Assembly: GCA_001314865.1 (NCBI GenBank)
Contig: LJZR01000017.1
Location: 1 to 64,000 of the forward strand
Direction of reading: 5' to 3'
Origin: Phormidesmis priestleyi Ana
Lineage (GTDB): Bacteria > Cyanobacteriota > Cyanobacteriia > Phormidesmidales > Phormidesmidaceae
DNA length: 64,000 nucleotides
The translations under genes were made by a program, and so were the position numbers. This document shows, in pieces, positions 14,216 to 19,070 of this stretch (position 1 is its first letter; every line of letters starts with the position of its first letter). The notes beneath the pieces were generated by a model that worked only from the letters and a program-made list of their open reading frames with translations, searched no databases and was not told the DNA's origin.

Positions 14216-14893
14216 TTAATTGGGCATTACCTGCGGAACTGCCTGAGATGGCTTGGCATCAGCGCTAAGCGGTAAGTCTTGGCCTTCGGCTTTTTGGCAA
14301 GCGACCATAGTTTTAACATGTTCCATTTCATCATCTCGAATAGCCACAAATACATCATAGAGATTGTCGATTTTAGGGCGACGATGGGCCGGAACATGGG
14401 CCGTTTGAAACGCATCGAACATATACAAATCACCATCGCGGTAGTAGTCGATGGCAATTTGGGGGGCAGGTTCCCCTTCAAGATAAGTCTTTTCTTCTTT
14501 TAAAAATTTGTTGTAGCTAGCAAAGGCGTGCTGTTCTACTTGCTCCATAAAATTGTAAGCGGCCTTGGGGGAAACTAAATACAGTCCAATGACAATCCAG
14601 TAGTAAAGCAGCGCTGTGTGACGGGCCAAAAAACGGTCAATCCAATAGTCACCGCCGCCTAGCGCTTCCATAATCAATAGGTGATGCAGCTCATTCCAAG
14701 ATTCTGCAAAGTGAACTTTTAGCCAATCTATCCTGCGCCACCAGCCCAGGGTTTCATAAAGATGCAATACAGAGAGATAGGAAAAGTAGGGAACCCGAGC
14801 GACGGTCTCTAAAACGTAAAAACGAGGATAGGGGCGCTTTTTGTACACCACGTTAATCACAAAAACCAGAATGCCTACTAAGACTTTAATCAT
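14216..14893 (-). CDS. Alternative oxidase/plastid terminal oxidase-like plastoquinol oxidase
   Basis: A 225-aa di-iron quinol oxidase of the AOX/PTOX family, which passes electrons from plastoquinol to O2 at the membrane surface. The iron-ligand motifs appear in order: LETVARVPYF, HFAESWNELHHLLIME, EQVEQHAFASY and RDDEMEHVKTM. The C-terminal tail after residue 205 is low in complexity. AAGAGAG precedes the ATG. It diverges from the HxlR regulator gene. A 35-bp site 105 bp upstream of its start is repeated before hemF in the same orientation relative to the gene, so joint control with the hemF-ho-acsF group is likely. Confidence 0.92.
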   Translation of the reverse strand: MIKVLVGILVFVINVVYKKRPYPRFYVLETVARVPYFSYLSVLHLYETLGWWRRIDWLKVHFAESWNELHHLLIMEALGGGDYWIDRFLARHTALLYYWIVIGLYLVSPKAAYNFMEQVEQHAFASYNKFLKEEKTYLEGEPAPQIAIDYYRDGDLYMFDAFQTAHVPAHRRPKIDNLYDVFVAIRDDEMEHVKTMVACQKAEGQDLPLSADAKPSQAVPQVMPN

Positions 14894-14997
14894 ATTGAAC
14901 TCTCTTAAGTTTGGAGATTTGGATTGTCTGCGCTTCTATCCTCGCAAGTTCTTTCAAAAACGCAAGATCGTTTCTACCCAGTGCTTATGCGCCAAAA

Positions 14998-15032
14998 AGT
15001 AAAAAATTAAACTTACCCTAAGTAAAAAAATG
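14998..15032 (-). promoter_or_regulatory. Candidate HxlR-regulator operator upstream of PTOX
   Basis: Read toward PTOX the site contains TTTTTTTACTT, then ACTTAGGGTAAGT (a palindrome with arms ACTTA and TAAGT), then TTAATTTTTTACTT. Nearly the same bases occur at 15645-15680, read toward hemF. Both lie about 90-105 bp before the start codon they face. Repeated TTTACTT elements and a palindrome suit a dimeric winged-helix regulator. Confidence 0.7.
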
Positions 15033-15158
15033 GCGCGTGAGCGGCTTTAGAAGCATCTTAAGGAAAGCTTAAATTCATGATTTTTGCGCAGACCAGGCAT
15101 CTCGTAGCCAGAGGTATCGTGCAAAATAGAATGTCTGTGCTCGTTCATTGATCTCAAT

Positions 15159-15521
15159 ATGGCTGATTCCCTGGACTGCTTAACCTTTCAGTGCCCTATT
15201 CAGCATGTGCTAGACATGCTAGGCAGCAAGTGGTCAATTGTGATTCTCAGGGAGCTATGGAGCGGCGATCGCCGTACCCACGAGTTGCTCAGTGCCCTTC
15301 CTGGCATCAGTAGCAAAACGCTAACCATTCGGTTACGGAATCTAGAAGAGCATGGCATTGTTGAGCGGCGAGTATACGCGGAGGTTCCCCCTCGGGTGGA
15401 ATATACCCTGACCGACAAAGGCAGGGAGTTGCAGCCTGTATTAAACGCTCTCCATCAGGTGGGTGAGCAATGGCTAGAGCAAGAAAGCTGTGTTTGCCCC
15501 GTTCAACAACTGCCCACCTAG
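15159..15521 (+). CDS. HxlR-type regulator with four cysteines (ChlR-like candidate)
   Basis: A 120-aa winged-helix regulator with HxlR signatures CPIQHVLDMLGSKWSIVILR and ISSKTLTIRLRNLEEHGIV followed by the wing YTLTDKG. It has exactly four cysteines: Cys7 and Cys12 near the N terminus and Cys111 and Cys113 in the C-terminal CVCP. This could hold an iron-sulfur cluster. Synechococcus ChlR is described as using an O2-sensitive 4Fe-4S cluster to switch on pigment genes, and this gene lies next to the same kinds of targets, so a similar role is inferred. Paired sites flank the gene at 14998-15032 and 15645-15680. Confidence 0.88.
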   Translation: MADSLDCLTFQCPIQHVLDMLGSKWSIVILRELWSGDRRTHELLSALPGISSKTLTIRLRNLEEHGIVERRVYAEVPPRVEYTLTDKGRELQPVLNALHQVGEQWLEQESCVCPVQQLPT

Positions 15522-15644
15522 TCATTTCATGGTGTCGTTTCATAGTCGTTTCATAGTCGTCCCATAGTCATTTCATAACGAAACTTTGCAGTTTTGAGCA
15601 TGAGCAAGAAATTGTTACATGAGCGTTCTACGCCTGAGACTGCG

Positions 15645-15680
15645 CATTTTTTTACTTTGGGTAAGGTTAATTTTTTACTT
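15645..15680 (+). promoter_or_regulatory. Candidate HxlR-regulator operator upstream of hemF
   Basis: It contains CATTTTTTTACTT, GGGTAAGG and TTAATTTTTTACTT in the same order and spacing as the site facing PTOX, with only a few changed bases. It ends 87 bp before the hemF start. An 11-bp tandem repeat (GTCGTTTCATA type, about 15521-15577) lies just before it. Confidence 0.7.
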
Positions 15681-15767
15681 CGCGTTCCTAAGGTTCTTTT
15701 TTTAAACCTTCTTGTGGGCATTCCAAAACATTTATAGGCTCGTTTTATGTTTTAGAGCGAGTGTTAT

Positions 15768-16976
15768 ATGCCTGTGCGAACCGATTCACAATCCTTCCAA
15801 GCAGATGTTTTAGCAGATGTTTTACAGCCAGCGAACAACCAGAGTGTCTCCTCCCTCAAAAATATAGCTCCGCAGAAGCGCACAGCACCCCAAAAAACGA
15901 ACAAAAGTATGCTACCGGCTCCCCCCAAAGACTCTCGACAGCGCTTTAAGCGCTATGTACAAACCTTGCAAGACAATATCTGCACCGGGCTTGAACGCTT
16001 AGATGGTGAGGCGAGGTTTCAAGAGGATATTTGGCAGCGAGAGAACGGCGGCGGCGGTCGCACTCGGGTCATTCGAGAAGGCGGCGTTTTTGAGCAAGGT
16101 GGCGTGAATTTTTCGGAGGTGTGGGGAAAGGGATTACCCCCTGCGATTATCAGCCAGTACCCAGAGGCAACCGGACATGACTTTTACGTCACCGGCACCT
16201 CTATGGTATTACACCCACGCAATCCCTATGTGCCGACTGTTCATCTTAACTATCGCTACTTTGAAGCAGGCCCTGTGTGGTGGTTTGGTGGTGGGGTCGA
16301 TCTCACACCTTACTATCCGGTTGTAGAAGATGTGGTTCATTTCCACAGGACAATAAAACAAGCCTGCGATCAGCATCATCCTGATTTTTATTCGGTTTTT
16401 AAGCCGTGGTGTGATGAGTACTTTTATCTGAAGCATCGGCAAGAAACCCGTGGGGTAGGGGGCATTTTCTTTGACTATCTCAACAGCCAAAGCAGCCTTT
16501 ACAATGGCCCTCATCCTGAGGGCGCAGCAGCACAAAAAAATCAAGCAAGTCAAACCAGTCAAGAAGTAAACCAGCAGGGCACGCCAGCATCTCACGCAGA
16601 ATCTTACAGTTGGGAAGCGCTATTTTCCTTTGTGCAGAGCTGTGGAAACTCATTTTTGCCAGCCTATTTGCCGATTGCTGAGCGGCATAAGGAACAGCCT
16701 TATGGCCAACGCGAACGCAATTTTCAACTGTATCGTCGGGGCCGCTATGTGGAGTTTAACTTGGTGTACGACCGAGGAACGGTGTTTGGCCTGCAAACCC
16801 AGGGGCGTACTGAATCGATTTTAATGTCACTGCCGCCCTTAGCCCGTTGGGAATATAGCTATACCCCCGAACCGGGCACTCCAGAAGCAAATTTGTATGA
16901 CACTTTTCTGCGCCCTCAAGATTGGGCGAACTGGAAAACAACAAAAACAAAAGCAACAAAAACAACAACTGTCTAA
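15768..16976 (+). CDS. hemF: Oxygen-dependent coproporphyrinogen III oxidase
   Basis: A 402-aa HemF, which converts coproporphyrinogen III to protoporphyrinogen IX with O2. Core motifs are clear: [52 protein letters not shown] and [16 protein letters not shown]. It is longer than usual because of about 47 extra N-terminal residues (a second ATG at 15909 would remove them) and a low-complexity insert of about 35 residues after SLYNGPHP. It leads a cluster with heme oxygenase 24-33 bp downstream and acsF after that. It is probably controlled from the site at 15645-15680. Confidence 0.95.
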
Positions 16977-17009: not shown

Positions 17010-17771
17010 ATGTGCGCTCCTACTTCCATGTGTCCTCCTTTGGCACTTTGCTTAAGAGAAGGCACTCAACAGTCTCACAGCCTAGCTGAAAATACAGTTT
17101 TGATGAAATGCTTGCGCAATGGGCTGATCAGCGCAGAGCCTTTGCGGCAGTGGATGGCGAGCTTGTATTTTGTTTACAGTGCGCTAGAGCTGGAGATGTA
17201 TAATCACGCTGACCATCCGGTGATTGGCAGAATTTATTTTCCTCGCCTAGAGAGAACACTTCAGCTAGAGAACGATCTAGCCTTTTATTATGGCGATAAC
17301 TGGCGCCGCCAAATTCAGCCCTCTCGCAAAACAATTCGCTATGTGATGCGCCTTCATGCGATCGCCAACGATCAGCCTGCTCTGCTAGCAGCCCATGCCT
17401 ATGTTCGCTACATGGGCGATCTGTCGGGTGGTCAAGGGCTTCGCGCAAAAATTCGTTCAGCGCTGAAGCTGCCTGAGGGACTTGGAACAGCATTTTATGA
17501 GTTTGAAGGGTTGCCAACGGCTGAAACTCGGCGAGCATTCAAGGGAGTTTATAGAGATGCTCTCAATCAATTGCCAGTGGATACGCAGCTGGCTACCCAG
17601 CTAATTGAGGAGGCTAATTTGGCCTTTAAGCTCAATTGTGATGTGATGCATGAGCTAGCATCTCAGGTTAAGGCTACGGTGAGCGAAGCGACGTGGGAAC
17701 TCATTACCCATGAAAACCTACCCGGCAGTACAGCTCACCTGCCGCCGCCGATTGAATTAGTCTCAGCTTGA
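17010..17771 (+). CDS. ho: Heme oxygenase
   Basis: About 253 aa. It opens heme to biliverdin, the first step toward phycobilins, using O2 and reduced ferredoxin. The proximal His is in EGTQQSHSLAENT, and the distal helix is YMGDLSGGQGLR. The ATG at 17010 is preferred because GAGG ends 8 nt before it; an in-frame GTG at 17001 overlaps that site. Its place between hemF and acsF mirrors the low-oxygen chlAII-ho2-hemN set of Synechocystis, so it may be the second, ho2-like isoform; this needs the rest of the genome. Confidence 0.95.
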   Translation: MCAPTSMCPPLALCLREGTQQSHSLAENTVLMKCLRNGLISAEPLRQWMASLYFVYSALELEMYNHADHPVIGRIYFPRLERTLQLENDLAFYYGDNWRRQIQPSRKTIRYVMRLHAIANDQPALLAAHAYVRYMGDLSGGQGLRAKIRSALKLPEGLGTAFYEFEGLPTAETRRAFKGVYRDALNQLPVDTQLATQLIEEANLAFKLNCDVMHELASQVKATVSEATWELITHENLPGSTAHLPPPIELVSA

Positions 17772-17897: not shown

Positions 17898-18968
17898 ATG
17901 ATCAGCACAGCAGCGTCAGGCAATAAGAGCCTTTTAGGAACAAAATCGACCATTGAAGAGAGTCTTTTAACACCCCGGTTTTACACCACAGATTTTGAGA
18001 AGGCAGCAGGATTAGATCTCTCTGAAGGGGAGACCGACCTAAAAGCAATGATCGCTGAAATGCGGGCGGACTATAACCGGCATCATTTTGTCCGAACAGA
18101 CCAGTTCAAACAGGACTGGAGCCATATTCAAGGCAAAGATAGAGAAGCGTTTGTTGACTATTTAGAACGCTCTTGCGTATCAGAATTTTCGGGCTTTTTA
18201 CTCTTTAAAGAACTCTCCCGACGCCTTAAAGATCGTCAGCCTTTACTGGCAGAAATTTTCTCGCTCATGGCCCGCGATGAAGCGCGTCATGCGGGTTTTC
18301 TCAACAAGGCAATGGCAGACTTTAACATCACGTTAGACCTTGCGAAACTCACGAAAAAACGCACCTATACATTTTTCCCAGTGGAATGGATTATTTATGC
18401 GGTGTATTTGTCTGAGAAAATTGGTTACTGGCGCTATATTTTGATTCATCGGCATTTGGCTAAGCATCCTGAAAATGCTTTTTATCCCTTATTTGACTAT
18501 TTTGAACCCTGGTGCCAGGATGAAAATCGTCATGGAGATATATTTAAGGCGTTGCTGCGATCGCAACCCAACATGTGGAAAACCTGGCAATCTCGCCTAT
18601 GGAGCCGCTTCTTTCTACTCTCTGTATTTGCCACTCACAGCCTCACCGTCCACGAGCGTACCGCATTTTATGAATCACTCGGACTCGATGCGACACAGTT
18701 TGATGTAGACGTTATCCGTGAAACCAACAACACTTCAGCCCGTGCTTTCCCTGTCATTCTCAACATAGATCATCCCGATTTCTTTAAACGGTTAGATCGC
18801 TGCGCAGCGCGCAACCTAAAGCTTAAAGCAATTGCCGAAAGCTCCGGCCCTAAACTGTGGCAATGGATCAGAAAAATTCCGTTGATAGCCGGTACTGTGT
18901 TAGATCTCATTCGACTTTATCTGATCAAACCGATTGATGCTGAAGCCTTACGAGAAGTGGTTCGATAA
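17898..18968 (+). CDS. acsF: Mg-protoporphyrin IX monomethyl ester oxidative cyclase
   Basis: A 356-aa di-iron AcsF/ChlA that forms the isocyclic ring of protochlorophyllide with O2. Diagnostic stretches are YNRHHFVRTDQF, CVSEFSGFLLFKELSRRL, MARDEARHAGFLNKAM and WCQDENRHGDIF, carrying the Glu and His iron ligands. The C terminus ends in a hydrophobic helix. It follows heme oxygenase by 126 bp on the same strand. Cyanobacteria often have two isoforms, one for low oxygen; the HxlR/ho/hemF context suggests this could be the low-oxygen one, but that is inference. Confidence 0.95.
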   Translation: MISTAASGNKSLLGTKSTIEESLLTPRFYTTDFEKAAGLDLSEGETDLKAMIAEMRADYNRHHFVRTDQFKQDWSHIQGKDREAFVDYLERSCVSEFSGFLLFKELSRRLKDRQPLLAEIFSLMARDEARHAGFLNKAMADFNITLDLAKLTKKRTYTFFPVEWIIYAVYLSEKIGYWRYILIHRHLAKHPENAFYPLFDYFEPWCQDENRHGDIFKALLRSQPNMWKTWQSRLWSRFFLLSVFATHSLTVHERTAFYESLGLDATQFDVDVIRETNNTSARAFPVILNIDHPDFFKRLDRCAARNLKLKAIAESSGPKLWQWIRKIPLIAGTVLDLIRLYLIKPIDAEALREVVR

Positions 18969-18994: not shown

Positions 18995-19070
18995 CTAAAC
19001 GCTTACATAACTAAGCGCTTACATAATTAAGCGCTTACATAATTAAGCGCTTACATAACTAAGCGCTTAA
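18995..19070. repeat. 16-bp tandem repeat, four copies, reaching into a gene end
   Basis: Four 16-bp units of the form CTAAGCGCTTACATAA run from 18995 to 19058, and a partial fifth continues to 19070. That last copy supplies the stop codon and final residues of the minus-strand gene ending at 19059. Each unit carries AAGCGCTT, a small palindrome. Confidence 0.9.

Follow-up and report, generated by a model that had tools for sequence, protein, structure and literature searches.

The question raised by this locus is whether a gene for a plastoquinol oxidase (PTOX) and an operon for heme, bilin and chlorophyll enzymes, which lie on either side of a small regulatory gene, answer to one regulator. 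Two nearly identical 35 bp sites, here called A and B, flank that gene within the window (the whole 64,000 nt stretch of Phormidesmis priestleyi Ana DNA that was analysed), and the initial annotation proposed from them that a single HxlR protein controls both sides. The gene names given there (PTOX, HxlR, HemF, heme oxygenase and AcsF) hold against Pfam and NCBIfam profiles and TIGR02029, and the genes are arranged as follows.

14216-14893, minus strand: PTOX, alternative oxidase family, 225 aa (Pfam AOX, 113.2 bits)
15159-15521, plus strand: chlR, 4Cys-type ChlR ortholog by its cysteines and identity, HxlR family, 120 aa (Pfam HxlR, 114.9 bits)
15768-16976, plus strand: hemF2, O2-dependent coproporphyrinogen III oxidase (NCBIfam PRK05330)
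17010-17771, plus strand: heme oxygenase, named ho2 by position only (Pfam Heme_oxygenase, searched from 17013)
17898-18968, plus strand: acsFII, encoding AcsF (TIGR02029)

The PTOX residues E29, E68, H71, E120, E189 and H192, four Glu and two His that we take to be the iron ligands, are invariant in 19 aligned rows. By its alignment and cysteine pattern, the HxlR protein of the window is a ChlR ortholog of the 4Cys type. Its length and profile match are those of a small HxlR/MarR-type protein, and its cysteines, at positions 7, 12, 111 and 113, form an N-terminal C-X4-C-P (Cys 12-Pro 13) and a C-X-C on the C-terminal side. Thirty-four columns are invariant in an alignment of 17 rows, in which the window protein is 53-70% identical to the 16 others, one of them (from G011) lacking a counterpart of Cys 7; the closest ChlR found, that of G625, is 77% identical. 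Named genomes were scanned with peptide patterns that are not specific to cyanobacteria, as HxlR proteins from other phyla match them too; of 80 loci kept, at least six (L069-L074) are cyanobacterial and have a close ChlR. The ChlR proteins of L011 (Cys 7 and 14) and L020 (135 aa, Cys 18 and 25) appear to fit the published proteins of Synechococcus 7002 and Synechocystis 6803. In its available portions, PMC4500134 describes 4Cys-type ChlR as a low-oxygen activator in Synechocystis and Synechococcus 7002 and proposes a [4Fe-4S] cluster as the sensor. Some ChlR orthologs are encoded divergently from acsF-HO-HemN, as in the published 7002 arrangement; chlR diverges from acsF at 13 of 75 loci in the class-level draw and in three of 14 further rows. 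Among those 14, L069, L073 and L074 probably repeat the genomes G577, G616 and G607 of that draw.

The near-identity of the two sites stood up to closer comparison: 33 of 35 bases are equal, against 22 at the next-best place in the window and at most 23 in 60 dinucleotide shuffles, and sites A and B are the sole exact matches to the 18-mer TTTTTTACTTNGGGTAAG in the 5.93 Mb assembly. Site A lies about 105 bp from the PTOX start codon and site B about 88 bp from that of hemF, much as first described, with the HxlR gene between them. The elements of the two promoters are listed here.

15032 to 14998, minus strand: site A, directed to PTOX, a tandem box pair
15010-15031, minus strand: first ChlR-like box of site A, 12.3 bits, ranked second among 127,958 places in the window
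14987-15008, minus strand: second ChlR-like box of site A, degenerate, in register with site B and below the listed matrix scores
14963-14973, minus strand: AAACnnTCTTG element of the PTOX promoter, as far from box 1 as its counterpart in site B
15645 to 15679, plus strand: site B, directed to hemF, a tandem box pair
15646-15667, plus strand: first ChlR-like box of site B, directed to hemF, 10.7 bits, third-best place in the window
15669-15690, plus strand: second ChlR-like box of site B, 18.4 bits, best place in the window
15704-15714, plus strand: AAACnnTCTTG element of the hemF promoter, at an offset equal to that of its site A counterpart

The scores come from a 22 bp matrix whose training set, 420 bp of upstream sequence from each of 17 acsF genes located beside chlR in other genomes, includes close relatives (L010/L011; L175/L179/L210) and excludes both the window and all PTOX promoters. 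Its consensus is AATGCTTTACTTGAGGTAACTA, and 15 of the 17 promoters have their box 84-102 bp before the start codon, the other two at 157 and 264 bp. The three highest-ranking places in the window are boxes of sites A and B, with the next place at 8.1 bits, so that each site is made up of two boxes at a step of 23 bp. The same spacing is found in G625, G396 and G405, which carry the family code of the window. The first boxes read TTACT-N3-GGTAA, one mismatch from the ChlR motif TTMCC-N3/4-GGWAA as quoted in the accessible text of PMC5295598 and PMC13421787. The TTACT half-site, set against TTMCC, weighs against a ChlR reading, as do the 12.3 bits of site A beside the 19.0-32.7 bits of the training sites.

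For ranking across the genome, two models, R1 and R2, were built from 27 and 23 hand-picked sites respectively. R1 contained the window's own boxes and was set aside as circular, whereas R2, from which the window was left out, gave site B the top rank and site A the next across the whole genome, with E values of 0.98 and 2.1, in a ranking that scored 150 of 1845 candidates and did not include the second box of site B. Given these E values, and a margin of 0.1 bit over a probable false match before a PstS-like gene, the motif alone is no proof of the sites. That match, at C127:37086 in the same genome (L300:1502-1519), is box-like and was rejected as a ChlR target; the gene below it was recognised as PstS-like by eye from its translation, and the match presumably resembles a phosphate-regulation site.

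The AAACnnTCTTG element, present in both promoters, is an addition to the earlier description of the sites. In the promoters of G404 and G625 its register is occupied by AAACGGTCTTG and AAACAGTCTTG, and a CTTG follows the top box at a distance of 21 bp in 15 of 16 acsF promoters, in seven of nine chlR-PTOX promoters (those of the window and G404 left out) and in four of 14 other promoters, with three more of the last group having it at 20 bp. These observations bear on the thought, prompted by the 33 identical bases, that sites A and B are recent copies of one promoter that share no regulation. We consider this very improbable: the two promoters differ outside the boxes and the AAACnnTCTTG element, G625 and G404 keep that element at the same distance, and copying, which could explain the likeness, would nevertheless have copied a working site too.

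The pairing of chlR with PTOX recurs beyond this genome. Among 388 class-level genomes, ChlR (E 1e-33 or better) is present in 76, PTOX (1e-50) in 71 and both in 25, with a Fisher p of 0.00075 that ignores relatedness and is not used as proof. At the 75 of 76 chlR loci that were examined (G629 left out), the divergent gene is PTOX at 10, nine of which have a box of at least 10 bits (G439 has 6.2), and AcsF at 13; it is neither at 52, of which 11 have a box and 41 do not. The addition of G197, from another draw, brings the PTOX-divergent loci to 11, in six family codes (f1, f5, f15, f19, f27 and f49). In the 300 bp before these 11 genes the best box scores 6.2-25.2 bits, and at least 10.3 in 10 of them, while a box is found before one of 17 PTOX genes located elsewhere in ChlR-positive genomes (26.6 bits, the next being 7.0) and before none of 39 in ChlR-negative genomes (highest 4.6 forward and 5.8 reverse). 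The chlR-linked PTOX genes other than that of the window differ in box score from those of ChlR-negative genomes (p 7e-7), whereas the unlinked PTOX genes of ChlR-positive genomes show no clear difference from them (p 0.056), most PTOX genes being unboxed. ChlR-negative here means having no match at E 1e-33; for genomes present in the phylum draw alone it means no match within the high-scoring group. The upstream test covers part of the PTOX genes, the 17 including that of G421, which has a broken ChlR match (1e-32).

The same counts speak to whether some other regulator, for instance a global redox or light factor, binds sites A and B. The box core is a single base from the published ChlR motif, boxes of at least 10 bits accompany chlR at 9 of 10 loci where PTOX diverges from it and at 11 of 52 other loci of the class-level draw, and ChlR-negative genomes carry none before the 39 PTOX genes; all 13 acsF-divergent loci also have a box, but these are the training loci and are not counted as evidence. 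We therefore give another regulator only a very slight chance, and prefer ChlR.

A further reading is that site A serves only the autoregulation of chlR, with the divergent PTOX gene a bystander. The box does sit in the shared divergent intergenic region, from which it could act on chlR, and in Acaryochloris marina chlR is itself up about 4-fold at low O2 (log2 1.92), according to the available text of PMC5295598. This is nonetheless unlikely, in our judgement. The box and CTTG element face PTOX as they face acsF, the chlR-PTOX pair recurs across the six family codes, and the same text gives A. marina ptox as more than 45-fold up at low O2. In G577 a PTOX gene with the 26.6 bit box lies on a contig other than that of chlR, so that the box can accompany PTOX and not only chlR; this genome is probably FACHB-63 (L069), whose acsF promoter is in the training set and whose PTOX promoter is not. 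Autoregulation is at least not general, since 41 of the 52 chlR loci with neither PTOX nor AcsF adjoining lack a box.

Individual genomes add detail to the reading in which ChlR acts on PTOX. G547 has two PTOX genes, with a box only at the copy beside chlR, and in G404, which has the family code of the window, PTOX, a response-regulator gene and an acsF gene 82% identical to that of the window follow one another in one direction behind one box. The PTOX of G410, in contrast, groups with that of the window in the tree yet has no box, which counts against this reading, as do the 6.2 bits of G439, the probable presence of the G577 acsF promoter in the training set and the missing first cysteine in the ChlR of G011. 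The tree, of 67 rows with G549 and G416 left out, does not unite the 12 chlR-linked or boxed genes in one clade, giving seven changes of which two are forced by starred branches, and 25 open forks. As the tree splits these genes, a single origin of chlR-linked PTOX is not claimed.

The proposal that one regulator serves both promoters thus finds good support in sequence comparison: the central gene encodes a ChlR ortholog, a matrix trained elsewhere finds both sites, and the chlR-PTOX pair is present in 10 more genomes, nine of them boxed at more than 10 bits. Here, and in some further lineages, PTOX is probably a member of the ChlR regulon; this does not extend to every lineage, since the unlinked PTOX genes of ChlR-positive genomes are mostly unboxed.

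The operon on the other side encodes second copies of enzymes present elsewhere in the genome, an AcsF on C128 (58% identity) and a HemF on C108 (66% identity); which copy serves which condition we infer from position. HemN was not found in this genome (98.83% complete), its sole HemN-like match passing the HemW cut-off and failing that for HemN, so that a second O2-dependent HemF takes the place of the O2-independent HemN found in known ChlR operons. In G405 a response regulator, AcsF and HemF lie in the same direction beyond tandem boxes, the first about 500 bp away. An arrangement of hemF-ho divergent from acsF recurs at L301, L304, L307, L309, L318 and L326; two of the genomes concerned, G392 and G619 (L309 and L326), have no ChlR at E 1e-33 and have weaker boxes of 12.0 and 14.3 bits before hemF. 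In G404 and G406, in which ChlR is present, no box was found before the hemF-ho/acsF cluster (none above 8 bits at L304 of G404), and the unboxed cluster of G404 argues against the ChlR reading. Six genomes of the same genus have no match to ChlR (E 1e-30) or to PTOX (E 1e-50), which implies that this genome acquired the locus or that those six lost it, and that its presence varies within the genus.

By eye, short repeats of the type TTTCATAGTCGT are seen between chlR and site B (15521-15580 of the window), and a short tandem repeat built on AAGCGCTTACATAA lies right after acsFII (18995-19070).

Sites A and B are, we think very probably, ChlR-dependent promoters of PTOX and of hemF2-ho2-acsFII that are switched on at low O2. 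By analogy with the dimeric ChlRs that have been studied, the protein would gain a [4Fe-4S] cluster at low O2, bind in that form to the tandem boxes before PTOX and before hemF2-ho2-acsFII, and activate both as O2 falls. The support for this most likely reading comes, at this locus, from orthology, cysteines, boxes, promoter layout and the recurrent chlR-PTOX pair, and the cluster, the binding and the sign of regulation are carried over from the studied ChlRs. More tentatively, PTOX may keep the plastoquinone pool in its oxidised state under scarce O2 and thereby allow the step directly after HemF, the oxidation of protoporphyrinogen, to proceed. The accessible parts of two papers are consistent with such a role: in Chlamydomonas, mutational loss of both PTOX2 and cytochrome b6f leaves the plastoquinone pool reduced and impairs protoporphyrinogen oxidase (PMC6499784), and for cyanobacterial HemJ plastoquinone has been suggested as the acceptor in a review (PMC7133116). 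O2 scavenging or service as an electron valve are given as alternative roles of PTOX in the portion of PMC6616624 available.

The system resembles the ChlR regulon of Synechocystis 6803 and Synechococcus 7002, given in the available text of PMC4500134 as chlAII/acsFII-ho2-hemN, desF and psbA1, in having a 4Cys-type ChlR and in placing acsFII and a heme oxygenase under a palindromic box. It differs in the PTOX gene across from chlR with its own tandem box, in the tandem boxes overall, in hemF2 in place of hemN, and in an operon that follows chlR on the same strand instead of diverging from it. That text also reports RNA-seq of Synechococcus 7002 in which the ChlR targets named number only four and all belong to the acsFII operon, a result that weighs against a link to PTOX. 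In A. marina, as far as the available text of PMC5295598 goes, the strongly induced ptox is AM1_1551, the locus tag before chlR (AM1_1552), an adjacency shared with the locus described here and a low-O2 response like the one proposed for it; unlike the operon in the window, acsF-ho-hemN (AM1_0465-0467) lies away from ptox and chlR. The motif search in that text gave a ChlR site upstream of AM1_0466, and the text does not attribute ptox to ChlR. The view of the initial annotation that PTOX is a new member of this regulon stands for the attribution of PTOX to ChlR, and gives way for the regulator and the acsFII-ho2 link, which are known, and for the low-O2 response of a ptox beside chlR, which is already published (PMC5295598). 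Among the matches listed from the open-access literature, mostly as titles and abstract openings, we recognised none that links ChlR to PTOX or to fermentation genes. ChlR was known before, as were its tetrapyrrole targets; new here are the link to PTOX, the operon variant with hemF2 and the hint that the regulon is wider.

That hint comes from ChlR-type boxes beside chlR in other genomes. AdhE followed by PFL lies behind such a box in G550 and G513 (34 and 127 bp from the match), PFL with its activase and AdhE in G532 (about 500 bp), PEP synthase at six loci (G129, G157, G213, G255, G262 and CG2_30_40_61; about 300 bp), and an NrdG-like gene in G521, G551 and G614 (about 300-440 bp; the one that was scanned falls below the NrdG cut-off). 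The boxes beside chlR before adhE, pfl, PEP synthase and NrdG-like genes were noted at L205, L216, L209, L193, L218, L224, L227, L219, L203 and L215. The tandem-box promoter of G625 faces a gene for a ribosome hibernation factor (about 200 bp), followed by a pentapeptide-repeat gene (L196:1831-2699). Downstream of PTOX itself and co-oriented with it, G011 has AdhE and PFL, and G580 has PFL and its activase, the gaps measuring 330-370 bp. Several of the boxes outside PTOX promoters are 200-500 bp from the gene named, so the target is unsure at the longer gaps. Together the boxes and adjacencies suggest a general low-oxygen regulon.

FNR-type low-oxygen regulons of other bacteria place an O2-sensitive Fe-S regulator beside oxidase and tetrapyrrole genes. 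The ChlR loci are alike in having a presumptive regulator of this kind adjoining oxidase, tetrapyrrole and, in other genomes, fermentation genes, and differ in that ChlR is of the HxlR/MarR type and not of the CRP/FNR family. It is conceivable, though we lean somewhat against it, the more so for the long gaps before several of the named genes, that ChlR is the cyanobacterial counterpart of FNR. Its regulon would then vary by lineage and include PTOX, tetrapyrrole isoenzymes (HemF2 or HemN, HO2, AcsFII), fermentation enzymes (AdhE, PFL and its activase, PEP synthase) and an NrdG-like protein for anaerobic nucleotide reduction, and within it PTOX would feed oxidised plastoquinone to protoporphyrinogen oxidation and couple pigment synthesis to the quinone pool under scarce O2.

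Were the wider pattern to be borne out, cyanobacteria would have in ChlR a general switch for low oxygen. Information on cyanobacterial PTOX is called scarce in the available part of a review (PMC6616624). Control of PTOX by the regulator that governs heme, bilin and chlorophyll synthesis at low oxygen would give the enzyme a testable role, that of keeping plastoquinone oxidised at low O2.
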